From: a virus
DNA length: 46,178 nucleotides
Reading direction: 5' to 3' (one strand)
IMG/VR virus record: IMGVR_UViG_3300035681_000035
Span: 1 to 46,178 of that record
A program made the position numbers and the translations under genes. This document shows, piece by piece, positions 15,605 through 43,169 of this stretch; positions within the stretch are counted from its first letter, which is position 1, and every line of letters starts with the position of its first letter. A model generated the notes under the pieces. It was given only the letters and a program-made list of their open reading frames with translations, was not told the origin of the DNA and searched no databases.

Positions 15605-16483
15605 ATGAAGACTAGAACTTTTAAGGCTTTTGTTGATGGCAAAGAACGAGAAATGTTTGTTCGATCTCCTTCTTTACAGGATCAGAGAGAGGCTACCAAA
15701 GTATATAACCAAGCATTTACAGAAGCTTTAAAGTCTAAGGCTGTGGTTAGAGCTAAATTAGACGATCTATTAGTGGAACAGGGTTTATGGGATGGTATCA
15801 AACAGGCTAAATTTACAGAATTACAAGCTGAAATTCTTGAAGGTGAACGTAAGTTAGCAAAAGGTGGTATTTCTTTAACAGAAGCTAAGAATTTGGCCCT
15901 TAAGATGAGAAAAACCAGAGAAGACCTAAGAGAACTTATTTCTGTTAAGACCAATCTAGACACCCACACTGCTGAAGGCCAGGCAGATAATGCTAGATTT
16001 AACTATTTAGTTTCAGCATGTACGGTGTATAATGATACTAAAGAGCAATATTTTAAGAGTTATGAGGAGTACAACAATAGAGCCACAGACCCTGTTTCTA
16101 TTCTTGCTGCTCAAAATTTGGCTAATATGCTATATGGTTTGGATAATGATTATGAAGATAAATTGCCAGAAAATAAGTTTTTAAAGCAATATAAATTTGT
16201 TGATGATAAACTAAGATTAATTAATAAAGAAGGTAAATTAGTAGACGAAAATGGTAAACTTATTGATCAGAATGGTAGATATATAAATGAAAAAGGAGAA
16301 TTTGTTGATAAAGATGGTAATTTGGTTGATCAACAAGGAGACTACATTGTAGAATTTAGTCCATTCTTGGACGATGACGGTAAACCAATTATTGTAGAAG
16401 ATAAGAAGTCAGAAATTACTGCTACTAAGGAAGAGGAAGTCGATGATTCAATCAAACCAACAGAAGAGACTAAAGCTTCATAG
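15605..16483 (+). CDS. Probable tail-assembly protein with Gly-led heptad repeats
   Basis: The 292-residue protein starts MKTRTFKAFVDGKEREMFVRSPSLQDQREA, a helical, charged domain to about residue 195. Residues 210-251 are six uninterrupted seven-residue repeats, each opening with Gly and a charged or polar residue followed by a hydrophobic pair and acidic or amide residues (GKLVDEN, GKLIDQN, GRYINEK, GEFVDKD, GNLVDQQ, GDYIVEF). The tail is acidic. It lies just before the tape measure gene, so a chaperone that wraps the tape measure is a fair guess. The N-terminal segment recalls tape-measure-chaperone genes, but the assignment is by position. Confidence 0.5.
   Translation: MKTRTFKAFVDGKEREMFVRSPSLQDQREATKVYNQAFTEALKSKAVVRAKLDDLLVEQGLWDGIKQAKFTELQAEILEGERKLAKGGISLTEAKNLALKMRKTREDLRELISVKTNLDTHTAEGQADNARFNYLVSACTVYNDTKEQYFKSYEEYNNRATDPVSILAAQNLANMLYGLDNDYEDKLPENKFLKQYKFVDDKLRLINKEGKLVDENGKLIDQNGRYINEKGEFVDKDGNLVDQQGDYIVEFSPFLDDDGKPIIVEDKKSEITATKEEEVDDSIKPTEETKAS
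16232..16357 (+). repeat. Six seven-residue repeats in a tail-assembly gene
   Basis: Six 21-base units encode a heptad pattern of Gly, polar, hydrophobic, hydrophobic, acidic or Asn, and two polar residues. The units have diverged at the DNA level, so the periodicity is kept by selection on the protein rather than by recent duplication. Confidence 0.8.
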
Positions 16484-16576: not shown

Positions 16577-19500
16577 ATGGCTAAAGGTTTTAATCTAACA
16601 GCACAAATTAATTTGCAGGGACCATCTAATCTTAAACCTATAGTTGCTGACATTAAAAGGCAATTAGGTACAGTATCGTCTAATGTAAAAATTAATTTAG
16701 ATGCAAAATCTGCTAAGGCTGTTGATAATGTTACTAGTAGATTACAAGCAATGAACGCTGTATTAGTACAAGCTAAACAAAATACAGATTCTTTAAGTGC
16801 TTCTTTAAGAAATCTCTCGTCATCGTTAGGAACGGTACAATCTGCTGGATCTAAGACGTCTTCTGCTATGAATAATACTGCTGTAAATGCTAAAAACGTA
16901 GCTAAAAATCTAAAAGTTGCCACGACTGAAATGGAAGAATTTGGTAAGCAATCAGCATTAGCTATTAGAAGATTTGCTGCATTTAGTATTGTGACTAGTG
17001 GAATATATGGTTTAATCAACGCTATTAATTCTGGTTTCAAAGCTTTTATTAACTTTGATAAAGAACTTATCAAGCTACAACAGGTTACAGGTAAAGGTGC
17101 CACTGGTATAGCCCTATTAGAAAAAAGTATAACTAGTTTAGCCACATCTCTTGGTGTTAGTAGTGAGAGTTTAATCTCTGTTGCTAGTACATTAGCCCAA
17201 GCTGGTTTAAGTGCAGAAGATACCAGAATAGCACTAGCAGCATTAGCTAAAACCGAACTTGCTCCATCATTCGATAATTTAACAGATACAACAGAAGGAG
17301 CCATTGCTGCATTGAGACAATTTGAATTACAGGCCGGTGAACTAGAAGGGGCTTTAGGTTCTATCAATGCTGTAGCGGCTGCGTTTGCTGTTGAATCTAA
17401 AGATATAATTTCTGCTATTCAGCGTACTGGTGGTGTGTTTGCCGCTGCTAGTAAAGGAGTTAGTGAAGGAACAGATGCTCTTAATGAATTCGTCGCTATT
17501 TTTACAAGTGTTCGTCAAACTACGCGTGAAAGCGCTGAAACTATTGCTACTGGATTAAGAACTATTTTTACTAGAATACAAAGAGCTAGAACTATAGATC
17601 AGCTTAAACAATTTGGTGTTGAATTAACAGATTTAGAAGGTAAATTCGTTGGACCATATGAGGCTATTAAAAGACTTAGTGAAGGATTAAGAGGACTTGA
17701 TCCACGAGACTTAAGATTTAGTCAAATCGTAGAAGAACTTGGTGGTTTCCGACAGATTGGTAAGGTTATTCCATTAATTCAACAGTTCGCAGTTGCTCAA
17801 GAAGCATTAAAAGTGGCTCAAAAAGGACAGGGTAGTTTAGCAGAAGCTCAAGTTGTGGCACAAAAAAGTTTAGCTAATCAAATTGCTAAAGTTAGGGAGC
17901 AATTTCTGGCCTTAATTAGAGATGTTGGTAAGAGTTCTGCTTTTCAAGGAATGTTTCAAATAGTAACAGGACTAACCAGCGGTTTAATTAGTTTAGCAGG
18001 AGCATTTAAGCCCATATTACCTATATTAGCTATCATGGGAACAGTCAAGGGTATTAAAGCTATAGGTGAATTTGGCAGTGGGTTTGTTGGAGGTCTTAAA
18101 AAGGGTGGTGGTGCTGGTAATGTTGGTTCTAATATCGGTGGCTCGATTAGTGGTGCCAAAGACAAAGAAAAAGCAGACGCTACCAATAGAGCCTCTAAGG
18201 TCATTCAAGATAATACTAATGCTATTCAAACATTAACTAGTGCTATAAATAAATTAACATCAGCAGTTAGTTCTAAAACATCAGGAAGTACCACTCTTAA
18301 TAGTGGTGGTATTGTAAAATTTGCTACGGGTGGTGTTGTCCCAGGAAGCGGAAATAGAGACACCGTCCCTGCTTTACTTACTCCCGGTGAATTTGTTATA
18401 CGTAAAAAAGCTGTAGAAACTATTGGTGCTGGTAATTTGCATAAAATGAATAAATATGCACTTGGAGGAAAAGTAGAACTCAGTGGTCAACAACTAAAAG
18501 CCACCTATAAATCATTATCTGATATAGTAAATAATAAAGAAAAATATACAGCAAATGTAGTACCAGTACCTATTGATGATATCTCTGTTATCAAAGATAT
18601 GAAAAAACGTAAGGATAAATATCCTTCTATGCCTCAATGGAAAAATTTTGAAGTGTCTGTAGGTAAAAAATATGGATTGCCTACCGCTGGTGGGAATAAA
18701 TTCTTAGATTATCCAAGTAAACCTGGAGAAGCTAAGTTTTTACGTCCAGATCAAGGATATGGTAATGATCCTGAAACTGGATTTATTAAAGGTAACAATA
18801 ATGAAACCATGTTGGCTAAACTTATAGGTGCTGGTTTATACCGTCCTAATAGAAAGATTTATACATATTATCCTAAAAGCTTAAGTAAATTTAATCAATT
18901 TGCTATTGGCGGTTTGGTTCAAAAGTTTGCTGGTGGAGGTAAGGCGCTAGGTGCTAGAAGTAAATTTAAAGAACTTACTTCAGAAGAAATGGATCAACTA
19001 AGTACTCAAGAATTAATTCAGTATGGCAAAGATTTAGCACAAGATATTTTTACTACTGGTGGCGCTGGTATGGCAGTTGGACATGAGTTTATAGAGGTTC
19101 CAAAAGAAAAAATTATTCCAGAACTAGACCAATATCTCACATCATATATTGGTAAAAGAGGATTTTGGAAAGAAAAAATAGCTCGTTTTGGTCAACCAGC
19201 AAAAATTACTAAAAATAATGATGTTTCTAATAGACAAAATGCATTAGAATCTCAAGTTGCTAGACAGTCAGACGAAGTAGCAGCAAGAGAACAAAACTGG
19301 ACAGCAATCAAAGCCGGATCTGCTATAGACAATTATTTATTACAATCTTTACAAGATCCAATATTAACAGACTATAAAACTGTTAGAGGTAGTGGTTCTT
19401 TAGATAAAGCATTTCATAATACCAGACTACGCCAAGCAGTTAATAAAGCTCTTGAGAATTACGATGATTTTGATTACTCTGCTGCAAATATAGATAAATT

Positions 19501-22500
19501 AGTAAGCAGTATGGCTGCTAAAAGATTTATGTATGGTGGACCAGTACAAAAATTTATGGCTGGTGGAGTAGCAGAGTCTTTATCAGCAGATAGTTTATAT
19601 GCACAAATACTAGAATTAGGTAATCCACAAGATGTTAGAGGACTTGCTGGAGGCTCTTCTTTTATAGATCAAAAATTAAAAGCCGTTCAGACTAGCGATA
19701 AGCCAGCTACAAGTAAAGAAATCTTTAAAAAGAACTTTTTATTAAGTGATAGAAGTAAACCATACCTATCTACTATACAAGAATTACTGGAAATTGCTAA
19801 TTCTAATAAAAAAAGACCAAGGATATTCACAGATGCAGAAAAAGCTAGCGCTACTAAACTAGGATTAGTTGGTATGTTTCCTTTTGGTGTGGATGAATTG
19901 CTATATGAACAAATTGGTGATCGTATTGTAGCAATTCAAATGAAGAGTTTGACACAGGATAAGGCTGGTATTGTTGATCAAATGAGAAAAGAAATAGATG
20001 CAGTTTTAGGTAGAACTACAGCATCTCTCTATGGAACATCTGGCCAGGATCTTAGTACTACTACTAAAGAAGGTTTAGGTTTAGGTAATCTAGAAGGATA
20101 TATGATTGAAGCTATTTTAGCAAAAGCTGGAGCTAATCCTGGTAAATTAGACGATAGATCGGTAGACTATGCATCCGGTTTGGGAAATGCTGCTAGCCTA
20201 TTCGGAATAGACCCAAATATTCCTACAGAAGTTAAAAGAGATGTTAAGGGAGGACTCAGCAAAGCCAGAGATAATTTTAAAAACTATTTTGCTAAATTTG
20301 CTTTTGGCGGTAAAGCCACTGGTCCATCTTTTGAAGATGTCAGGAAACAAATTCTAGATAAGTATCCACAAATTAATTTTAGAATTAGTAAAAGAAAACG
20401 TGGTTTTGGTTACAATATATTAGGTGGCCTAAAACAAGAAGGAGATAATGTTGGTAATTATGCTGATTTTCAACAAGCTTCTAATTTAGAACAACTGTCA
20501 GCACTAGCTGATAAAATGGCTAATCAATTACAATATGTTTATGGTCCAAATATTGATCCATCTTTATTAAAGAAAAAACAGAAAAAGTTTGCTTTAGGCG
20601 GATTAGCAGAAGCCACAGGGGAAATGTCTTCTTTAATGAGTGGATTATATGGTAATAGATCTCAAGAGCAAAACTTACCACAGAAAAAAGAAAAAGAATT
20701 TGGTAAGATTGGTCTTAGATCTGATGGATCAGAAATAACAGCCACCTATTTTAAAAATCAAACACGAGAGGGCTTTGTTACTGCTAAAAAAGCTGCTGAT
20801 AATTTATATACTGTAGGATTATCTAAAGCTACTAAGGGTTATGGTCCTAGATTATATGATGTTGTTATGGAAGCTGCAACATCTGCTGGTGGTATGCTTA
20901 CATCAGATAGAAATAGTGTTAGTGGTGCTGCTCGTGCTGTTTGGGATTATTATTTTAATAATCGAGGAGATGTTAAAAAGACACCATTAGATCCATCACA
21001 ATGGACTAAGAATCAAAGTCTTATAGATCCAAAATTATACGGTAAGAAAGAAACATGGCCACCATCAACTGACCCAGCCTGGATTTTACAAAGTGGATAT
21101 AGTAAGAACGCTGAATTAATAAATAGTTCAGAAATTATTAATATGAATGATCCAAAATATAAACAATTTTTGGATTCTCAAAAAGTATCATTCATGACAC
21201 AAGCTGTGTTGGCTGGTAATATGCGTAATAATGGTGGTAGTATCAAAAAATTTGCTAAGGGAGGATCAGCAGAAGATACTGTACCAGCTCTGTTAACTCC
21301 TGGTGAATTTGTTATTAATAAAAAAGCTGCTAAACGCATAGGATATAATAAATTACATAAATTAAATAAAGCAGATAAACTACAAGGATATAATAAGGGT
21401 GGTTCTGTTGGTATGATACAAAAATTTGGTGCTGGAGGTTCACCACAACCTTGGCCCAAAGATTTAATGAAATATACCACAGAGAATAAACTAGCATTAG
21501 CGGCAGAACAAGCAGAGTTTTTTGCATATAAAGCCAAAGAGGCTGGTCAAACAGTTAGTCAATTTAGTAAAACATTAGCAACTAAAGTTGTTTCAAGAGC
21601 TAGGGATTTACAGACTAATTTAAAAAATAAACAAACAGGACTAAAATATAGTGTCTTAGGTCAGGCTGATGAATTAAAGGGTAGTAATAATAAAGATATT
21701 CTTAAAAAAGCAGTAGAAGATTTTAGTAATCAGATTCAAGAAATAGATCCTTCTAAATCTGCTGATGAAGTTAAGAAAACAGCACAGGCTATAGTAAGAG
21801 GATTAAGAGATGGATTATCTTTAGATGCTATTAAAAAGAAAAGTCAAGATGTAGCGGATGTATTTTCTAAAGTATATAAAGAAGGAGAAGCTACTCAAGA
21901 AGCATTGAAGTTAGTAGCTAAAGAAGCTGGAATGAGTTCTGAAGCGCTTCAAAGAGGAGTAGGATCTAATAGAATTCGTCAAGAACAATTTATTCAGAGT
22001 GATGCTGGCCAAAATTTTGGTCGTTTAGCACAGTTAATTCCTGATAAACTAGAAAAATTATCTAAAACTGGTTTTGGTAAGGGATTTACTGGTTTGGCTA
22101 ATGCTTTGAGTGGTAAAGGACTATCCGAAAAACTAGAAAAAAGTTTTGGTAAAGTTGGTGGTTTTATTGGAGATAAATTAGATGCTATAGGAGGCCCACT
22201 AGTAGCGCTCGGATCTGCTACAGCAATACTAGGTGAAAAATTACCTTCTCTATTAGGTAGTCAGTATGCGACTAGTACTACTGCTGCTGGTGTGGCTGGA
22301 GGTATTGGTGGTGCTGGTCAAGGTTTAGCTAGTGGTGCTTTGTTGGGTATGCAAATAGCTGGTCCTGTAGGAGCAATGATTGCTGGTATTACTGGAGCTG
22401 TTGTTGGTGGTATAAGCGGAGCCTTTGAGGCATTTAATCAAAAGAAATTAGAAAATAATCTTAAGGCTTTAGAAAAAACTAGTGGAGATTTATCGGCAGC

Positions 22501-25500
22501 ACTTAAAAGATTATCTATAGAAGCTAGCGATGTTAACATTAAAAATGTAAAATCTGCACTGGGTGCTGATTTACGAAATTTAGAAAATGTTGGACAACAA
22601 GCTCAGTTTGGTGCTAGTGGTAGTGCTAGAGATTGGCTGGAATTTACGCGAAATCTTCCTCTTATTGGTGGTTTGGTTACCAGTGTTACTGGAGGTAATC
22701 AAGAAGCTGAAGCTAGACAAGCTGTAGTAGCTGGAATAGAAAGGGCTTTTGATAGCGCTAATAGGCTGGGAGATATTAATAGATCTGGTGCTCCATTAGC
22801 TCAAATACAAGGATTATTATCACAGGCTAATCAAGCAGCCGAGGATGCTGGGGGCATAAAAACAGAAGCTGGACAAAAAGCTAGAGATGAAATTTTAGCT
22901 CGTGGAAGTCAAGCATATCAACAACTCAGAGCACAAGGTGCTAGTGCAGACTCCATATTTAAAGCTGCTGGAATGAAAGAAGCACAACAGCAGGGCAGAG
23001 ACGTATCTAAAGAATTAAAAATGCCAGGAGGTGAACAAAAATTAATAGAAGAAGGTAAAAGAGCATTAGCTATTCAAGAAGAAGCTGCACTCAAACAAGA
23101 ACTAGTTGCCGATGCTATGAGAAACGTATCGGTACAATCTGATAATTTGATTGATATGTATCGAAGAATGCAAGCAGGATTAGAAAGACTTGGACAAAGT
23201 ATAGATACTATTAAAAATAGAGCTAATGATGCGGCTAATGTTTTAATGGGTCAGGCTTCCATTACTAATGTAGATAGACGTAGTGAACAAGTCCTAGGTA
23301 ATATAAGTGCTTATTCATCTAATGAAGTAGCATCTGTGGCTGAACAAACGGCAGTTATTGCTGGCGGGGGTGAAGAGGGTAAAAGATTAGCAGATCAAAT
23401 TAAAGCAAATAAGTTATTAACAGATCAGTTACCCAAACTATTAAAAGGGGCTACTGGACAAAATGTTGGTGGTGTAGTTGACGAACTAGAAAAAATGTTT
23501 GCACAAGCTCAATTAACAGCACCGGCTGGATTATTTGATTCTATTGAACAAGAGCTACAAAGTAAACTACAAGGAAGAGAAGAAAGTTCTATTGGAGATT
23601 TAGCAGAAGAGTTGGATATTGTTGGAATAGCATCTAAAACAACTGGTGAAGCCTTAAAAACTTCACAAATTTTGCAAAAACAATATAATGATGCTACACA
23701 AACCGTGACCGATTTAATGAATCAATATGGAAAAGCTCTCAATGAAGCTACTGAATGGCAATTAAGGGCCACAGATATTAGAGCCAGAGCAGATATTCAA
23801 TTAGCGGAAACTTTAGGTAAAACATTAAGTTTAGCTGAACAAAATGCACCACAACAACAAAGAATTTTAGGTTTAACTAGTGGTGTTATACAAGGAGGCT
23901 CTTTAGATCCTAATAAGATTTTTGCCACAATGACCGCCGCTATAGCAGAATTAGGTCAAGCAGGAACGGAAAATAAACCAGCTACAGGTATGTATGCTGA
24001 ATTAGACAAAGTCAAAGGAACCCCAGCAGAAGCAGAACAGCTAGCACTAATTGCAAAACAGAACAATGCTATTAATAATAGTAGAAAAGCATTAGAAGAG
24101 CTAGCAAACGATGGTTCAGCAGCAGCTAATGCATTAAAAAGACTACAAGAGCAACAGAAGGTGGCAGCAGGATCTGTAAACTTTTTGCAAAAAGTATTAA
24201 CCAGTGATGCTACTGAATTGGATAAGATGAATAAAGGACTAGCTGCATATACTAAATTAGTGAGCGGTAAAGCTACGGCTGGTGATATTAATAGTCTACA
24301 ATTTAGACAACAGGCGTTTGGTGGTTTGCAAGAAATGCAGGGACTATTACCAGATAGTGTGTTCAATCAGATGCAAGCTAAGATGAGTGAAGCTATGATT
24401 GATGCTATGCCTGGTGGATCAGATATGTTGGATAGAAGTACAGGTGCATTATATACTGCCGATGAAATTGATCCCGCTACTGGACAAAAAAGGGCAGTTA
24501 CTAAAGAAATGACCTTTAGACAAGCTTTAAGGATGAGGGCAGAAGGTAAAGATCCAGTGCAGCAACAATTTATAGATGCTTATAACGCTGCTGTACAGGC
24601 CCAACAGGACGCTGCTAGGCTTTTAGCCACCTCGTCTGTTCAAGCTGCCGAAACTTTTAAACAAGCAGCAACAGAGGCACTACAAGCAAGAAATGAAGCA
24701 CCACGATCAATTTTAGAAAGAGCCAAAACAGAAGCAGAAGCTGTGGTAACTCCACCAACAGAAAAACCAAGAGAAAATACACTAGTTAAAACCGAAGCAC
24801 AACTTGATGCAGAGGCGAAGGATAAAGATCCTTTATCTTTAGGCTTAGAAAATGTGAACACAAGTATATCTAATCTTACTACAGCTATATATACTTTGGC
24901 CGGTACTATTACAGCATTAGTTGGTGCTATAGCAGCATACAAAACCATACAATCTGCTGGTGGTATTGGTAATGCTATAGGAAGCGCTGTGGATATGGTT
25001 CGTGGCCGTCGCAGAAGAACTGGATTTGGTGGTTCTGACGCTCCATCAGCAGGATCTCGCGCTGCTGGAAATGCTAGAAAAAATGCTCGTTATGATTCAG
25101 ATGGTGTTCGTGGAGAAGCAAGTCGCGCTCCTAAAACACAAGCAGATATTGATGCTCAAAGAAAAAGGATTGAAGCTAAACGTACGAAAGCAGAGCAAGG
25201 CACAACTCCAAAAAAACCAGTAGTGGCCACGCCCACTCCAGATGTCAAACCCAAAGTTTCAGTTACTCCACCTCCTGTTCCTGGTAAAACAATTGTTGGC
25301 CAATTTCCACCACCTGAAGCTCCCAAACCTCAAGTTAAACCAGATATTGTACCACCACCAGTTCCTGGAAAAACAATAGTTGGCCAATTTCCTCCTAAAA
25401 CTGAAGCATCACTACCAAAATCAGCCACAAAAGCAGCTGGTGCTGTAGTTGATGCGGCTTCATCATTAGACGAAGTTGTTACCGTTGCTCAAAGCGTTGC

Positions 25501-28060
25501 AAATATTGCTAGTGGCCAAGGCACAGCACAAGATGTTGTATATGGAGCAACCAGCGCTTTAGAAATTGCTAATCAGACTGGTGTTGCTAGTAAAATGCCA
25601 GGATTAGCCAAGGCTGGAGCTGGTGTTAGTGGCACATCAGGATTCTTAGCATTAAATACAGTTATTAGTGGCATAACTAATGCTCTTGAATTTGCTATGG
25701 ATCGAGCAAAATACTCTCAGAAGATGCAAGATAAATCAGATACTGGGCTAGAACGAGCACAGACTAGAGATTATACTGGTTTTATTACTGATAGTTTATA
25801 TGGCGCGTTAGAAGGTTTAATGGATCCTATTGGTAAAATTGTAGAAGCTAGATATGTTATTAAAGATTTATATAGCGATGTATCTAATACTGTTGAAGCT
25901 GAAGCTAAAACAAAAAGAATTGAACAAAAAGGCAAAGACATTAGAGCCGAACAACGAGGAGAACAAGGCAAGGCACTAAATGCCTTACCTATGATAGAAC
26001 AAAATAGAGCTATGGAAGAAGCTCAAAATAAACTAGAGCTTAAGAAGGCTCAAGAAATTAAAAATCGCGGTGGTTCATTAGCTGATTTTGCTAAAACATT
26101 CGATGTATCAGAATCTTCATTAGGCGTTGGCTCATTAGATGAATTGATAGCCAAACGAGAAGCAACTATTCAAGCATTACCGCAAGATAGAATGGGAGCT
26201 AGAAAACAAGAGAAGAAAGGAACATGGGACTGGAGCAGCAATGCCGACCCCAAGGGCTTCTCAGATGCTGTTCAACAAGAACTTGAATTTAGAGAATCTC
26301 AACTTGGTAAACCATTATCTGCAATGGAGCAGATGGCTAATGAAGCAACTAAGCCGGGTAGTATTTATACTCATGATATTCATTTAGCTAAAATTTTAGA
26401 AAAATTTGTTGGTGGCTCAAGCGTTGCCGGTGCCGCTGCCTCAATGATAGATAATGAATCTCTTAAGAAAATATCAGAAGGTGCTGGACAAGCACTACAA
26501 AAGGGTGCAACATCTATTTATGATACTTTAACTAACACAGATAAGATGAAAAATGTGACCCAAAAAGCTACCACAACACTACTTAATCCTAATGAAAGTT
26601 TAGCTAAGGGCAAGGATTATATAACATCATTCTTTAAGACTAAGTCCCCAGGTATGTCAAAATTGGCAGATGCTAAACTCGATACGAATAATAAAGATAT
26701 TATTAAATACTTTACTGATCCTAATGCTTTTAATCTTAAAACTGCTGATGGTATGGATGTTCCAACAGCAACTACCAGTTGTGAATGTGATTTATTAACT
26801 CAAATATTAGCCGCTATTAAAGACTATTATAATGCACTCAATCAAAAAATTACATCACCCACATCTTTGACACCATCAGCACCTATAGCCGCACCAACAC
26901 CTCCAGGAGTTATACCGCCAACAGATATGGCACCAACTCCTATTCCAACACCAGAAGTAAAACCCGAAGTTGTTGCTCCAGCAGAAAAAGAAAAAACTAA
27001 TGAATTTACTCTAGGCGAAGACTACGTAACACGCGCTGAAAAACAATATGCTCCAACACCAGAAAGAAAAGCATTTGTACAAAACGAACTTAAGGATGCT
27101 AGAAAAAGAGCAAGAATGGGTAAGAAATCTGCTACTGATGATAGTGTTATTAGTGCTAGTACTTTTGAATTAAGAAATATAGCACAAGCTGAAAAAGTTA
27201 AGAAGAGAGAGGAATATCTATTAAAACAAAATCCAAAAACTCGTGCTAGACTAATGACTAAGGCTGAAAAAGAAGCTGGCTTAGGAGACAAGCTAGAAGC
27301 TATTGAAAGAGATCGTGAAATATCTAGTCAAGGATATGCTACTAAAAATATTAATGATACTACTAATGGAAAAATGACAGTTATTGGTACGAGCCAACCA
27401 ACACAATTTGATAAAGATAATAGAATGGCAATGCCAACAGCTACTGCATTAAATCCCCAACAACAAGAAGCCTTAAATAGAGCTGGCGCAATGGCTCAAG
27501 AACATAATCAAAAAATGTCTGAATTACAACGTAGACAAGATGCTGGAGAAACATTAACGCCACAAGAAAGCAATGCTCTATCTGTTCATAGAAATGGGCA
27601 AACAGCAGAACAAAATATATTAAGTCAGTATCCAACACCAGTACCATCTAATATACCTAAGCCAGTAGAATATACTCGTCAGGTTCAAACTACTGAAAAT
27701 AGAGGATCATTAGATGGTGGAGCACAAGGGGATAGAAATAATATTAATGGAATGAATGGTGGTTTACTATCTATTGATCCTAAGAGTCTAGCAGGACTTA
27801 CCACATTTAATAGTTCTTTTGCTACTTATGTTGATAAATTAGTTAATCATCAATTCCCACCAATCGAAGGTAAGGTTGATATTAATCATAAATTAGAAGT
27901 CAATATGACAGGGGCGGCATCTATAGCTACGCTTGAAAAACGCTTACAAGAACTAGCAGTAGCATTAATTGCTCCAAAGATCGAAGAATTACGTAAAGAC
28001 ATTAAGAAATTTATACCAGATCTACAACCATCAGGAACCAAGGGCGAAACTAAGAATTAA
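16577..28060 (+). CDS. Giant tail tape measure protein
   Basis: At 3827 residues this is the largest gene. Residues about 150-370 match TP901-type tape measures (FDKELIKLQQVTGKG, LGVSSESLISVASTLAQAG, then FVAIFTSVRQTTRESAETIATGLRTIF). Hydrophobic segments lie near residues 460-490, 1905-1950 and 2767-2790. DTVPALLTPGEFVI occurs near residues 595 and 1567, marking a middle section (about 580-1621) of small domains between GG hinges. One inserted domain near residues 1375-1465 (YGPRLYDVVMEAA, then VWDYYFNNRGDV) recalls an acyltransferase-like domain found in other phage proteins. Long Ala/Gln/Glu helices follow. The protein sets tail length and may enter the host. AGGA precedes the ATG. Confidence 0.92.
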   Translation: MAKGFNLTAQINLQGPSNLKPIVADIKRQLGTVSSNVKINLDAKSAKAVDNVTSRLQAMNAVLVQAKQNTDSLSASLRNLSSSLGTVQSAGSKTSSAMNNTAVNAKNVAKNLKVATTEMEEFGKQSALAIRRFAAFSIVTSGIYGLINAINSGFKAFINFDKELIKLQQVTGKGATGIALLEKSITSLATSLGVSSESLISVASTLAQAGLSAEDTRIALAALAKTELAPSFDNLTDTTEGAIAALRQFELQAGELEGALGSINAVAAAFAVESKDIISAIQRTGGVFAAASKGVSEGTDALNEFVAIFTSVRQTTRESAETIATGLRTIFTRIQRARTIDQLKQFGVELTDLEGKFVGPYEAIKRLSEGLRGLDPRDLRFSQIVEELGGFRQIGKVIPLIQQFAVAQEALKVAQKGQGSLAEAQVVAQKSLANQIAKVREQFLALIRDVGKSSAFQGMFQIVTGLTSGLISLAGAFKPILPILAIMGTVKGIKAIGEFGSGFVGGLKKGGGAGNVGSNIGGSISGAKDKEKADATNRASKVIQDNTNAIQTLTSAINKLTSAVSSKTSGSTTLNSGGIVKFATGGVVPGSGNRDTVPALLTPGEFVIRKKAVETIGAGNLHKMNKYALGGKVELSGQQLKATYKSLSDIVNNKEKYTANVVPVPIDDISVIKDMKKRKDKYPSMPQWKNFEVSVGKKYGLPTAGGNKFLDYPSKPGEAKFLRPDQGYGNDPETGFIKGNNNETMLAKLIGAGLYRPNRKIYTYYPKSLSKFNQFAIGGLVQKFAGGGKALGARSKFKELTSEEMDQLSTQELIQYGKDLAQDIFTTGGAGMAVGHEFIEVPKEKIIPELDQYLTSYIGKRGFWKEKIARFGQPAKITKNNDVSNRQNALESQVARQSDEVAAREQNWTAIKAGSAIDNYLLQSLQDPILTDYKTVRGSGSLDKAFHNTRLRQAVNKALENYDDFDYSAANIDKLVSSMAAKRFMYGGPVQKFMAGGVAESLSADSLYAQILELGNPQDVRGLAGGSSFIDQKLKAVQTSDKPATSKEIFKKNFLLSDRSKPYLSTIQELLEIANSNKKRPRIFTDAEKASATKLGLVGMFPFGVDELLYEQIGDRIVAIQMKSLTQDKAGIVDQMRKEIDAVLGRTTASLYGTSGQDLSTTTKEGLGLGNLEGYMIEAILAKAGANPGKLDDRSVDYASGLGNAASLFGIDPNIPTEVKRDVKGGLSKARDNFKNYFAKFAFGGKATGPSFEDVRKQILDKYPQINFRISKRKRGFGYNILGGLKQEGDNVGNYADFQQASNLEQLSALADKMANQLQYVYGPNIDPSLLKKKQKKFALGGLAEATGEMSSLMSGLYGNRSQEQNLPQKKEKEFGKIGLRSDGSEITATYFKNQTREGFVTAKKAADNLYTVGLSKATKGYGPRLYDVVMEAATSAGGMLTSDRNSVSGAARAVWDYYFNNRGDVKKTPLDPSQWTKNQSLIDPKLYGKKETWPPSTDPAWILQSGYSKNAELINSSEIINMNDPKYKQFLDSQKVSFMTQAVLAGNMRNNGGSIKKFAKGGSAEDTVPALLTPGEFVINKKAAKRIGYNKLHKLNKADKLQGYNKGGSVGMIQKFGAGGSPQPWPKDLMKYTTENKLALAAEQAEFFAYKAKEAGQTVSQFSKTLATKVVSRARDLQTNLKNKQTGLKYSVLGQADELKGSNNKDILKKAVEDFSNQIQEIDPSKSADEVKKTAQAIVRGLRDGLSLDAIKKKSQDVADVFSKVYKEGEATQEALKLVAKEAGMSSEALQRGVGSNRIRQEQFIQSDAGQNFGRLAQLIPDKLEKLSKTGFGKGFTGLANALSGKGLSEKLEKSFGKVGGFIGDKLDAIGGPLVALGSATAILGEKLPSLLGSQYATSTTAAGVAGGIGGAGQGLASGALLGMQIAGPVGAMIAGITGAVVGGISGAFEAFNQKKLENNLKALEKTSGDLSAALKRLSIEASDVNIKNVKSALGADLRNLENVGQQAQFGASGSARDWLEFTRNLPLIGGLVTSVTGGNQEAEARQAVVAGIERAFDSANRLGDINRSGAPLAQIQGLLSQANQAAEDAGGIKTEAGQKARDEILARGSQAYQQLRAQGASADSIFKAAGMKEAQQQGRDVSKELKMPGGEQKLIEEGKRALAIQEEAALKQELVADAMRNVSVQSDNLIDMYRRMQAGLERLGQSIDTIKNRANDAANVLMGQASITNVDRRSEQVLGNISAYSSNEVASVAEQTAVIAGGGEEGKRLADQIKANKLLTDQLPKLLKGATGQNVGGVVDELEKMFAQAQLTAPAGLFDSIEQELQSKLQGREESSIGDLAEELDIVGIASKTTGEALKTSQILQKQYNDATQTVTDLMNQYGKALNEATEWQLRATDIRARADIQLAETLGKTLSLAEQNAPQQQRILGLTSGVIQGGSLDPNKIFATMTAAIAELGQAGTENKPATGMYAELDKVKGTPAEAEQLALIAKQNNAINNSRKALEELANDGSAAANALKRLQEQQKVAAGSVNFLQKVLTSDATELDKMNKGLAAYTKLVSGKATAGDINSLQFRQQAFGGLQEMQGLLPDSVFNQMQAKMSEAMIDAMPGGSDMLDRSTGALYTADEIDPATGQKRAVTKEMTFRQALRMRAEGKDPVQQQFIDAYNAAVQAQQDAARLLATSSVQAAETFKQAATEALQARNEAPRSILERAKTEAEAVVTPPTEKPRENTLVKTEAQLDAEAKDKDPLSLGLENVNTSISNLTTAIYTLAGTITALVGAIAAYKTIQSAGGIGNAIGSAVDMVRGRRRRTGFGGSDAPSAGSRAAGNARKNARYDSDGVRGEASRAPKTQADIDAQRKRIEAKRTKAEQGTTPKKPVVATPTPDVKPKVSVTPPPVPGKTIVGQFPPPEAPKPQVKPDIVPPPVPGKTIVGQFPPKTEASLPKSATKAAGAVVDAASSLDEVVTVAQSVANIASGQGTAQDVVYGATSALEIANQTGVASKMPGLAKAGAGVSGTSGFLALNTVISGITNALEFAMDRAKYSQKMQDKSDTGLERAQTRDYTGFITDSLYGALEGLMDPIGKIVEARYVIKDLYSDVSNTVEAEAKTKRIEQKGKDIRAEQRGEQGKALNALPMIEQNRAMEEAQNKLELKKAQEIKNRGGSLADFAKTFDVSESSLGVGSLDELIAKREATIQALPQDRMGARKQEKKGTWDWSSNADPKGFSDAVQQELEFRESQLGKPLSAMEQMANEATKPGSIYTHDIHLAKILEKFVGGSSVAGAAASMIDNESLKKISEGAGQALQKGATSIYDTLTNTDKMKNVTQKATTTLLNPNESLAKGKDYITSFFKTKSPGMSKLADAKLDTNNKDIIKYFTDPNAFNLKTADGMDVPTATTSCECDLLTQILAAIKDYYNALNQKITSPTSLTPSAPIAAPTPPGVIPPTDMAPTPIPTPEVKPEVVAPAEKEKTNEFTLGEDYVTRAEKQYAPTPERKAFVQNELKDARKRARMGKKSATDDSVISASTFELRNIAQAEKVKKREEYLLKQNPKTRARLMTKAEKEAGLGDKLEAIERDREISSQGYATKNINDTTNGKMTVIGTSQPTQFDKDNRMAMPTATALNPQQQEALNRAGAMAQEHNQKMSELQRRQDAGETLTPQESNALSVHRNGQTAEQNILSQYPTPVPSNIPKPVEYTRQVQTTENRGSLDGGAQGDRNNINGMNGGLLSIDPKSLAGLTTFNSSFATYVDKLVNHQFPPIEGKVDINHKLEVNMTGAASIATLEKRLQELAVALIAPKIEELRKDIKKFIPDLQPSGTKGETKN
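18314..21439 (+). repeat. Recurrent 'KFAxGG' hinges separating tape measure domains
   Basis: Eight short hinges recur: VKFATGG, KYALGG, FAIGGLVQKFAGGG, FMYGGPVQKFMAGG, AKFAFGG, KKFALGG, IKKFAKGG and IQKFGAGG. They divide residues about 580-1621 into unrelated globular stretches of about 90-240 residues. The first and last pairs flank the DTVPALLTPGEFVI motifs. Confidence 0.75.
25268..25396 (+). repeat. Duplicated proline-rich motif in the tape measure
   Basis: PPPVPGKTIVGQFPP is encoded twice (25268-25315 and 25352-25396), joined by a short Pro/Lys linker. The two DNA copies differ at third positions, so this is an established duplication. Confidence 0.85.
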
Positions 28061-40286: not shown

Positions 40287-41560
40287 AATATTGGACCAGT
40301 TATGGGATCGGCCCATCCTTTATTAATACTATGAGGCCATACTAACCAACTGTGTGGTTTTTCTTTTGTTATAAAACTTCTCCAAACTTTACAGTATCCT
40401 TCTGGATCATTTTTCATTCTGGATATTTCATCAGAATCAGCATCTTGTCTAAAAATATCATTTCCTTCTTTATCTTTAAAGGCAACAGCCCAAAAATCAT
40501 AATCATCTTCAGGCACCTGATCATAGCCAATATCAATACAATGTTTAAAAATTGGCTGCAATGAATCTTCAAATGCTTGATCAGATATTGTCATATTTTC
40601 CAACTTTGGCGGCTTATGATCAATCACATCTTGTGTTATAGAACGTGTACTAAATTGCATACCGGCATATTTTTCATAGTCTTTTAATGATCGAACATTA
40701 CCAAAACTATATTTACCAAAATCAATATCATTAATTTCATTATCCATACCGAATAATTTACGATTTCTTAGATGACATTTATTATTTTTGTCTACCCACT
40801 TAGTATCATCATCCCATTGTTTGCTGCGTCCCTTTCGCGTATATTCATGCCAACACACTACTTTATGAGGATAAAATATATCGTACCCATGAGTAAAAGC
40901 TCTAACAGCAACATTTATTTCTTCACCATGAAAATAATAGTTCGGATCATGTTTAACTTCTTTAGCAAATATTCCTAAAGTAAATGCAAAATGAGCACTA
41001 TAAAAACGGCCCATTAATGGTTCATCTAAATTATCTATATCAGAATTAAAGGAAGCAGGAAGAAAGAATACTGCACCTTCTGGTATGTATCTATCAAAGG
41101 TCATTTTCCATGGCTCTTGAACTCTAGCATCCGGATCATTATCAGGATCAAAACTAGGGATATATGCTGTTATAAGAGGCTTAGGATATCCTTTATCCTG
41201 AAGAGATAATAACATATCTATTAATATTTCATCCCAATTTTCTATAAATCTATGATGACTATCTAGTTGCAGAGTATACGTTTCACCCTGATATAAATTC
41301 TGGACCAGATTTCTCGCCCAACAAACTCCTTGACTATCTCTGTAGTCGATATCTATAATCTTAAAGCGACTATCATAAATATAATCATTTAAATGATCCC
41401 ATTCATCCAGATCACAATGTTGCCAGCATATAGCAAATCTTAAATTTTCTGGATATTTAGCTTTACTAATACAATCTTTTAATGTGGGTAATAATTGAGG
41501 ATCTCGATAAGATGCAATTTGTATAAATATAGTATTAGTTTTCTTTTCGTTCTGTTGCAT
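40277..41560 (-). CDS. GlcNAc-transferase-like glycosyltransferase (GT60 type)
   Basis: The 427-residue protein begins with TIFIQIASYRDPQLLPTLKD, then LRFAICWQH, ARNLVQNLYQGETYTLQLDSHHRF and later YFHGEEINVAVRAFTHGYDIFYP. This order matches the GlcNAc family that includes Skp1-type and trypanosome polypeptide GlcNAc-transferases. D100-S101-H102 is the DxH/DxD-like metal site. Known members put GlcNAc on hydroxyproline or threonine of proteins. Here it could begin glycan chains on the Ser/Thr-rich virion proteins. The C-terminal 130 residues contain WAVAFKDKEG and are unassigned. The gene overlaps its neighbours by 10 and 26 bases. Exact sugar and acceptor remain open. Confidence 0.75.
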   Translation of the reverse strand: MQQNEKKTNTIFIQIASYRDPQLLPTLKDCISKAKYPENLRFAICWQHCDLDEWDHLNDYIYDSRFKIIDIDYRDSQGVCWARNLVQNLYQGETYTLQLDSHHRFIENWDEILIDMLLSLQDKGYPKPLITAYIPSFDPDNDPDARVQEPWKMTFDRYIPEGAVFFLPASFNSDIDNLDEPLMGRFYSAHFAFTLGIFAKEVKHDPNYYFHGEEINVAVRAFTHGYDIFYPHKVVCWHEYTRKGRSKQWDDDTKWVDKNNKCHLRNRKLFGMDNEINDIDFGKYSFGNVRSLKDYEKYAGMQFSTRSITQDVIDHKPPKLENMTISDQAFEDSLQPIFKHCIDIGYDQVPEDDYDFWAVAFKDKEGNDIFRQDADSDEISRMKNDPEGYCKVWRSFITKEKPHSWLVWPHSINKGWADPITGPILWN

Positions 41561-43169
41561 GGTAATGGTGAACTCTGTTGTGTGTTATGGGACTAGCTAA
41601 AAGAATAGCTGGGTGTATTTTCTTCTCTTTGGTAAGAGTATAAATATGACTCATCCAGGTTTGTTCATATGGATGTTGCCATGTGGTATCTAGAAAACAT
41701 TTCTTATTGCCTGTCTGACTTATAATATGAGGCCAATTAGAATAGTAAATCTCTCCATCAGCATATGGAATACCATTAAGAGTTTTAATATTATCGAATT
41801 TAGTGGGTGGCTTTTGTTGAATATTTCCAAAGTATTCTTCTCTTAGAGATTGTGGAATATTATGCCAACTCCACTGATCACCATTATGACCATAAAATTC
41901 ACTAAAACTAAACTTAATAAAGTCATATTTTTCTTTATTCATAATCTTAAGCAAAGAAGAGTAGAGGTCTTTAACGTTCTTAGACAATCCAAAATTACAC
42001 AATCCCTCATAATCCAATAACATATCATCCTCAAAGAAAAACATATAATCAGCCCCTGATTCTGCAAAATGTTCGGCCGCTAATTGGCGACCTCCACAAA
42101 TGCCCAAATTACCTTTTCTAATTTCAGTAAAATTATATTGTTTGACAATTTGATCGTATTCTGGAAATAAACTACTATCAGTAGAATTATTAATTAAGAT
42201 CTTATTCGTTTGATCAATAAATTTAGGATCATGCTTCATAAATGAAGACAATACCATATTAACCTGTGACGGAGAATTAAATGTAATTATATATAGATTT
42301 ATTTGTTTATCTTTACTTTTAATCTTGGATTGTTGTAATTGTTCAAAAAAATAATATACTAATCCGTTGTCCTCTATCATTTCAAAGTGATATGTTTCTG
42401 GATCCAAATACGTCATAATAGTAAAGATACTTTCTTCAGTACCCATATATCCATTATTAAGAGTGTCTGCTAATAATTCATAGTATAATTGATTAGCTTT
42501 ACTTATACTATCTTTATGTCCTCCAAAAAAACCACCACGAGCTACTCTATTAACAGTATCGTTTTGTGAATATTTTTTCATTCCATCAATACCAAAACCA
42601 TGTATTTCTTTATCTGTTTCATAAGGAAATGCTATAAAAAGAAAATTATCAGATAATTTAAGAAGATTATTAATTACTATAGGATTATTAAAATATCCTA
42701 AGCTCATTGTGTTACTAAGTCCACCATCTATCCAATAAAAATAGGAACTGTTAAAAGGATCAAAACACTTAGCGTTATGCAGCAAAAACATCTTGCTCAT
42801 AACCATAGGATTATAATATGCTAATGATCCTTGTGTACTATCTTTAAGCCATTCTGCCTGATTATACCATTCTGGATTATTTCTGATATTTTGAATTTGA
42901 TCAAAAAATGGGAAAAAGGCTCCAGAGAAATCAGATTTGGTATGATAATAAATTCTGGTATTGTGGTGTTCTCGATGTTGCCACACCAGATCCTCCAAAG
43001 ATGGATCAATAAAAATAATTAAATTATAATCTTTGAGGTCTTTTAATAACTGGATAAAATGATTTTTATAATGATCAAAATTTCGTTGCCATCCTGGTTG
43101 AGAATTACCTCGATCTAAATCCCAGATACCAGTCACAAAAGTAATATTATTTTGCATTTTTTTTAGCAT
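41535..43169 (-). CDS. Two-domain glycosyltransferase (HtrL/YibB-like plus GT2-like)
   Basis: The 544-residue protein appears to be a fusion. Residues 1 to about 290 resemble the HtrL/YibB or WlaTC family: ITFVTGIWDLDRG at the start, YFYWIDGGLSNT (146-153) as a DxD-like site, and ARGGFFGGHKDS. From about residue 295, INLYIITFNSPSQVNMVLSSF begins a GT2-like domain with KGNLGICGGRQLAAEH and YMFFFEDDML, the acidic metal site. Such a fusion can add two sugars in sequence. It overlaps the upstream gene by 23 bases and the downstream one by 26. An alternative start at MQNNI removes only four residues. Confidence 0.7.
   Translation of the reverse strand: MLKKMQNNITFVTGIWDLDRGNSQPGWQRNFDHYKNHFIQLLKDLKDYNLIIFIDPSLEDLVWQHREHHNTRIYYHTKSDFSGAFFPFFDQIQNIRNNPEWYNQAEWLKDSTQGSLAYYNPMVMSKMFLLHNAKCFDPFNSSYFYWIDGGLSNTMSLGYFNNPIVINNLLKLSDNFLFIAFPYETDKEIHGFGIDGMKKYSQNDTVNRVARGGFFGGHKDSISKANQLYYELLADTLNNGYMGTEESIFTIMTYLDPETYHFEMIEDNGLVYYFFEQLQQSKIKSKDKQINLYIITFNSPSQVNMVLSSFMKHDPKFIDQTNKILINNSTDSSLFPEYDQIVKQYNFTEIRKGNLGICGGRQLAAEHFAESGADYMFFFEDDMLLDYEGLCNFGLSKNVKDLYSSLLKIMNKEKYDFIKFSFSEFYGHNGDQWSWHNIPQSLREEYFGNIQQKPPTKFDNIKTLNGIPYADGEIYYSNWPHIISQTGNKKCFLDTTWQHPYEQTWMSHIYTLTKEKKIHPAILLASPITHNRVHHYHATERKEN

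Follow-up and report, generated by a model that had tools for sequence, protein, structure and literature searches.

We describe a cassette of exchangeable domains inside the tail tape measure protein of a virus known from the IMG/VR record IMGVR_UViG_3300035681_000035; the window, that is, the whole stretch of DNA analyzed, spans positions 1 to 46,178 of that record. Within a single open frame, amino acids (aa) 580–1620 of this protein hold five unrelated domains, here called beads A–E, which are strung on glycine-rich hinges and bracketed by two copies of a module found in many tape measures. Among related phages the beads are gained, lost, replaced and reordered, and the boundaries of these changes fall at hinges far more often than expected. 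Bead E is predicted to adopt a GNAT fold, and several relatives carry further enzyme-like beads. Our preferred reading, to which we assign a probability of roughly 0.6, is that this is an effector cassette resembling polyvalent proteins, whose beads would accompany the tape measure in the tail and enter the host.

Layout of the cassette

The carrier is encoded by the longest frame of the 46,178-base record (16577–28060). PhageMin_Tail matches its aa 183–388 (E 5e-21, 75.9 bits versus a cutoff of 33.2), and PHROG families 4211, 167 and 28 match with a best E of 1e-23. A terminase is encoded upstream, and the window also contains a weak major-head-protein match. Judged by profile, by length and by its place in a virion gene cluster, the product is a tail tape measure protein. 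Its parts are listed below, with hinges and modules placed by motif positions or the hinge consensus and, for the second module, also by relatives.

16577..28060, + strand: tail tape measure protein carrying the cassette (3,827 aa; PhageMin_Tail and PHROG tape measure families)
16577..18301, + strand: conserved N-terminal tape measure core, aa 1–575 (~51–75% identity in relatives without this cassette)
18299..18469, + strand: bracketing module 1, aa 575–631 (KFATGG hinge, DTVPALLTPGEFVI and LHKMNKYALGG)
18470..18898, + strand: bead A, aa 632–774
18923..18940, + strand: hinge KFAGGG, aa 783–788
18941..19522, + strand: bead B, aa 789–982
19523..19567, + strand: double hinge RFMYGGPVQKFMAGG, aa 983–997
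19568..20293, + strand: bead C, aa 998–1239 (core ~20069–20293)
20294..20311, + strand: hinge KFAFGG, aa 1240–1245
20312..20584, + strand: bead D, aa 1246–1336
20585..20602, + strand: hinge KFALGG, aa 1337–1342
20603..21247, + strand: bead E, predicted GNAT-fold acyltransferase-like domain, aa 1343–1557 (AlphaFold2 model and fold matches)
21248..21436, + strand: bracketing module 2, aa 1558–1620 (KFAKGG hinge, DTVPALLTPGEFVI, YNKGG and KFGAGG)
21512..24676, + strand: conserved post-cassette region, aa ~1646–2700 (relatives co-linear again, ~26–41% identity)
22289..22441, + strand: glycine-zipper-like hydrophobic stretch, aa ~1905–1955 (from hydropathy; candidate membrane-inserting part)

An earlier note on this DNA, made from the sequence alone, had described unrelated globular stretches separated by eight KFAxGG-type hinges and enclosed by two DTVPALLTPGEFVI motifs, and this layout was confirmed at the positions it gave. 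Hinges of the form [KR]F[AGM]xGG begin at aa 581, 783, 983, 992, 1240, 1337, 1558 and 1616; five match KFAxGG exactly and the remaining three read RFMYGG, KFMAGG and KFGAGG, while three weaker hinge-like motifs lie at aa 627, 775 and 1605. When the protein was shuffled 2,000 times, the mean number of hinges was 0.03 and the maximum 2, versus the 8 observed. The two DTVPALLTPGEFVI copies stand at aa 595 and aa 1567, with the five separate domains between them. The cassette also differs from its flanks in composition and is richer in aromatic residues: 7 Trp and 40 Tyr occur in 926 aa, whereas the N-terminal core, at 575 aa, has no Trp and 2 Tyr. The two beads for which we describe structural models, C and E, are predicted to be compact mixed alpha/beta domains and not continuous helix. 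Across 203 hinges from 59 tapes, the hinge peptide follows the consensus GG-x-[VI]-Q-[KR]-F-A-x-GG-x-[VA], while its codons differ.

The bracketing module, recognizable by LTPGEF, is matched in >1,100 phage records, with S-SM2 and Bunnybear among the named phages that share it. It aligns to aa 701–782 of the 853 aa of lambda gpH, and the module of one relative aligns to mycobacteriophage Douge gp16. From these matches, it is a common tape measure module and not one particular to the present phage group. For this reason, we describe the cassette as an expansion that lies between two copies of such a widespread module.

Relatives and exchange of beads at hinges

A first scan of viral contigs returned 13 loci, and a scan with aligned N-termini listed 80, which after deduplication left 64 distinct tapes (designated by L numbers), all of them on metagenome contigs. 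Bead counts were obtained by searching profiles through the 55 tapes longer than 1,600 aa, and Pfam was run on the cassettes of 32 relatives; because contig ends or a 2,000-aa limit truncated some of these cassettes, the bead counts are to be read as minimum values.

Across these relatives an alignment holds over the N-terminal core and again beyond aa 1646, but not over the cassette. The two modules lie between ~150 aa (L030, L045) and >2,300 aa (L028) apart, and the longest tape measure seen, at 6,561 aa, occurs on two contigs (L010 and L012), its first 2,900 aa containing ART (ADP-ribosyltransferase), P-loop, HIGH, C and E beads together with many hinges. Bead order varies as well: B precedes C in the window and in L018 and comes after C in L047, L074 and L086. 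Beads are thus gained, lost, replaced and reordered among related phages, and the cassettes of relatives are clearly not strictly co-linear.

To locate the boundaries of exchange, 24 pairs of close tapes were aligned and identity breakpoints were called by a two-state model. A hinge-like motif lies 3 residues or fewer from 67 of the 144 breakpoints (47%), versus 7.6% for random positions, and 5 or fewer from 51%, versus 11% expected; the pairs are not independent, and the binomial probability is not to be taken literally. When the comparison was confined to 13 pairs sharing no tape, ~30 of 81 breakpoints fell within 3 residues of a hinge, ~5 times chance. The suggestion of the earlier note that domains may be swapped between phages is borne out by this pattern.

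The clearest single case is the pair L044/L059, whose first 1,450 nucleotides are 99.9% identical and in which bead E (L044 aa 1929–2132) is replaced by a different bead; DNA identity extends into the hinge codons and then ends. At this level of nucleotide identity, the pair represents a recent bead replacement in tape measures. Other pairs show further kinds of change: L020 differs from the window in lacking bead B between A and C, a 433-aa stretch is missing from hinge to hinge between L080 and L084, and L004 and L005, 94% identical at the start, carry unrelated beads until a KRFALGG/SQFALGG hinge. In L034 and L044, ~1,000 aa of cassette are 94% identical versus 80% for the N-termini and 53% for the next region; a cassette more alike than its flanks fits lateral transfer of the cassette. 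We rejected hinges as DNA-level recombination sites, since hinge codons vary, though short shared DNA at hinges could still help exchange, as flanking identity reaches the hinge codons in recent swaps.

In between-tape comparisons, medians of the ratio of nonsynonymous to synonymous substitution rates (dN/dS) are 0.16–0.23 for all five window beads, values that show purifying selection on each of them at the codon level.

Bead E

The earlier note had found the stretch with GYGPRLYD and VWDYYFNNRGDV reminiscent of an acyltransferase; both motifs lie in bead E, and modeling supports the resemblance. The AlphaFold2 model is a compact mixed alpha/beta domain with a core pLDDT (predicted local distance difference test) above 90, in which strands at 36–76, a helix at 81–94 at the KGYGP turn, a strand at 98–101 and a helix at 108–119 follow the GNAT order. 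Of the 50 best PDB matches, 47 are GNAT enzymes and the remaining three are NDM-1 entries, with a best E of 0.015 and probabilities reaching 1.0. The KGYGPxLYD segment sits at what we take to be the place where GNATs bind the acyl-CoA pyrophosphate. PHROGs, NCBIfam and a whole-protein Pfam scan gave no sequence-level GNAT family match for bead E, and on the strength of the model we regard it as a GNAT-fold, acyltransferase-like domain and assign it to no named GNAT family.

Bead E occurs in 14 of the 55 long tapes, and a dedicated scan placed it in 40 tape-like loci, some of which are duplicates. A search of genome_contigs returned no relative of it. Outside tape measures, relatives of bead E occur in four short separate frames of other viruses (L134:5422-6663, L135:5719-6366, L136:5719-6372 and L137:5575-6660).

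Beads A to D

Bead C is nearly constant, its core being present in 51 of the 55 long tapes, and all 32 database matches obtained with the core alignment (32/32) lie in giant hinge-bearing frames. Its AlphaFold2 model has a pLDDT of 88, and at E<=0.001 the model had no match in PDB or BFVD; a PDB sequence search with bead C also returned nothing. A core that is near-universal, recovered from these tapes alone and confidently modeled without a structural relative suggests that bead C may be a new fold, and it may be the essential bead of the family. A motif of the form E ... D ... (D/E)xK is conserved in it (E in 44, D in 49, D or E in 46 and K in 38 of 49 sequences). This recalls PD-(D/E)XK nucleases, an assignment for which the motif alone is weak evidence; as no PD-(D/E)XK enzyme appeared among the 50 structural matches listed, we retain it as a lead only.

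The other beads are more sporadic. Bead A, found in 4 of the 55 long tapes, has an E-D-ExK pattern invariant in 5 sequences, which resembles that of bead C; a profile comparison of the two was not significant, and we did not retain A as a relative of C. Bead B (12 of 55) has a GGAGMAxGxEF motif, and bead D (8 of 55; dN/dS ~0.16) has the motif FRISkRKrgFGYNiLGgLKqeG. A joint fold of beads A–D was dropped, as MAFFT had put A and some B rows onto C. PHROGs gave no match for A, C, D or E and for B only one at chance level, the Pfam scan of the entire tape measure found nothing within the cassette, and PDB sequence searches with B, E and the P-loop/HIGH pair described below found nothing convincing.

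Enzyme-like beads in relatives

ART domains occur in 9 of the 55 long tapes. In L010, L026 and L047, PF03496 scores 38.9, 30 and 26.4 bits, respectively, versus a gathering cutoff of 23.4, and the FLSTS and ExE motifs are present; by score and motif, these three tapes carry ADP-ribosyltransferase domains. In 16 of 55 (including L028:15059-16201, L049, L050 and L043), a HIGH-type nucleotidyltransferase comes after a P-loop domain, a pairing reminiscent of NadR-like or nucleic-acid-repair enzymes. HAD domains, with the motif DFDxTL, were found in 25 of 55, mostly adjoining bead C. The HIGH and HAD assignments combine sub-threshold Pfam scores with intact motifs. In the relatives the intact motifs read GxAGSGKSS for the P-loop, GGFSPTTAGH for HIGH and DFDxTL for HAD. 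A single protein, L026, combines ART, HAD, P-loop, HIGH and GNAT domains. In the window itself one enzyme-like domain was identified, the GNAT-like bead E.

Proposed function and alternative explanations

With enzyme domains placed in a tape measure, we infer that delivery into the host, which the earlier note had also suggested, is the best explanation of their location. In the mechanism that we propose, the two copies of the common module bracket compact domains strung on FAxGG linkers, and the beads would be carried in the tail as part of the tape measure, probably in an unfolded or loosely folded state. In phage T5, the tape measure pb2 contains an enzymatic domain, and its C-terminal end is at the tail tip (PMC10038345), so the parts that come after the cassette would leave first. 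The candidate membrane-active part downstream of the cassette, the glycine-zipper-like stretch, would then exit the tail ahead of the beads and form a channel; next the cassette would reach the cytoplasm, before the DNA does. There acyl-CoA, NAD and ATP would be at hand for GNAT-, ART- and kinase-like beads, which would modify host targets or disarm early defence.

Several points weigh against this proposal. Bead delivery is here a proposal from metagenomic sequence. Among 50,697 phage records, neither DNA nor protein searches recovered a relative of the cassette, and the collection contains no cultured phage with it. The ART, P-loop, HIGH and HAD domains sit in relatives and not in the window, and the GNAT call for bead E comes from a Foldseek E of ~0.015 with no sequence-level family match. 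Of the five window beads only E was recognized as enzyme-like, and with no fold match for the near-constant bead C, the most conserved part of the cassette is also the least explained. Finally, folded domains of 20–25 kDa, in several copies, may not fit the tail lumen, in which case the mechanism needs unfolding and refolding. A bolder version, which we hold tentatively and at somewhat less than even odds, is that the tape measure is an exchangeable multi-effector magazine, an undescribed delivery class, in which the near-universal bead C would have a role throughout the family, perhaps that of a nuclease, a release factor or a docking domain.

Among the alternatives, we considered whether the protein is a polyprotein that a protease cuts at the FAxGG hinges and LTPGEF modules while the tail matures; the beads would then be set free as separate proteins, to be loaded into the tail or put to use in the cell that produces the phage. 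A tight hinge peptide consensus despite varied codons is what a recognized peptide would give, and autoproteolytic release of polyvalent domains was proposed by Iyer et al. (PMC5512222). The tape measures of lambda and T5 are moreover cleaved during tail morphogenesis (PMC10038345), and the bracketing module matches lambda gpH. However, Pfam found no protease among ten neighbours scanned, glycine-rich hinges serve equally well as plain flexible linkers, and lambda is cut near the C-terminus and not in mid-protein. The gpH cut presumably lies near the matched module, a placement that we take as approximate. On balance we consider release by proteolysis unlikely, though it deserves to be taken seriously. 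Processing in the producer, known for T5 and lambda (PMC10038345), would also suit beads that act late in the producing cell, in tail assembly or host modification, without being delivered. It would nonetheless be odd to fuse host-modifying enzymes to a virion protein for late use, and the domain classes agree with known or predicted injected proteins (PMC5512222), which makes late action in the producer quite improbable.

A different kind of alternative is that the zone is an insertion-tolerant spacer that mainly tunes tail length or flexibility, with the domains as passengers. Tape measure length generally sets tail length, and the large size range of the cassette would suit such a role, yet the purifying selection on every bead, the intact catalytic signatures in relatives and the retention of the bead C core in nearly all long tapes argue otherwise, and mixed alpha/beta domains would make poor rulers; we judge the spacer improbable. 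As for an artefact of chance motifs or chimeric assemblies, the one circumstance in its favor is that every relative is a metagenome contig. The hinge count lies far above chance, frames stay open across junctions and breakpoints fall at hinges. The identical virus was recovered at 100% on a second contig (L001), and architectures recur on separate contigs (L002/L003, L005/L006/L013 and L010/L012). We therefore give an artefact almost no weight.

Relation to known systems

A close parallel to the proposed effector cassette is found in polyvalent proteins, which are predicted to be injected with the DNA; T4 Alt is packaged and injected (PMC5512222). As there, disparate domains occur in one polypeptide (in relatives such as L026), ART and GNAT types are among them, architectures are rearranged and solo versions of domains exist. 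Unlike there, where the carriers in the examples are head, portal, MuF, N4-RNAP-like or conjugative proteins, the carrier here is a tape measure (the word 'tape' is absent from that paper, PMC5512222), and the beads, joined by a fixed linker, are flanked by two modules of the tape measure. ART and GNAT activities are also used on host proteins by phages in the form of T4 Alt and phiKMV Rac (PMC7824862), but these are separate proteins outside the tape measure.

T5 pb2 resembles the present protein as a tape measure with an enzyme domain, and proteolytic processing is known for T5 and lambda (PMC10038345); the pb2 domain is, however, muralytic, C-terminal and concerned with envelope penetration, whereas here several non-muralytic domains are swapped in mid-protein. 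A tape-measure-like effector packaged in a phage-tail-like particle accepts a foreign functional domain, and it has been proposed that its fold is adapted to the lumen of the tube and that it folds once ejected (PMC13277306). The Sle1-type effectors of these actinobacterial contractile injection systems share with our case a tape-measure-like carrier, an exchangeable functional domain and a tail-like particle. They differ in having a single C-terminal functional domain and a cellular particle, in contrast to a multi-bead internal cassette in a phage tape measure. We excluded a contractile-injection-system effector (Sle1/Tme) for the window, which has the terminase and the weak major-head-protein match. 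In the survey of Smug et al. 2023, tape measures had a sequence-based mosaic signal and no genuine recent mosaicism was confirmed (PMC10684548); unlike those cases, L044/L059 is a recent one at 99.9% flank identity, providing the clear domain replacement in tape measures that this large survey had sought without confirmation.

Tape measures are usually seen as rulers and channels, and in this large uncultured phage group they would also be rapidly re-armed proteins. The cassette accounts for tapes of up to ~6,500 aa, and its hinges make the exchange points of a tape measure readable from sequence, a linker rule that can be used to seek similar cassettes in other tapes. The beads form a catalogue of candidate early-infection effectors, comprising GNAT, ART, P-loop, HIGH and HAD types as well as unknown folds. 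Relative to the open-access literature, a swappable cassette borne by a tape measure may be new, though an earlier description elsewhere is possible.

Other features of the window

Within the tape measure, a weak PdsO match at aa 1916–1999 overlaps the glycine-zipper-like stretch, and a proline-rich near-repeat, PPPVPGKTIVGQFPP, occurs twice at aa ~2897–2940 in the C-terminal third. The protein encoded directly upstream of the tape measure (15605–16483) has short tandem repeats of the type KLVDENGKLIDQNGRYINEKGEFVDKDG at aa ~205–250 and is DUF3659-like, with a score below cutoff. On the minus strand, opposite to the tail genes, the frame at 41535–43169 has a strong HtrL_YibB match (E 9e-15).

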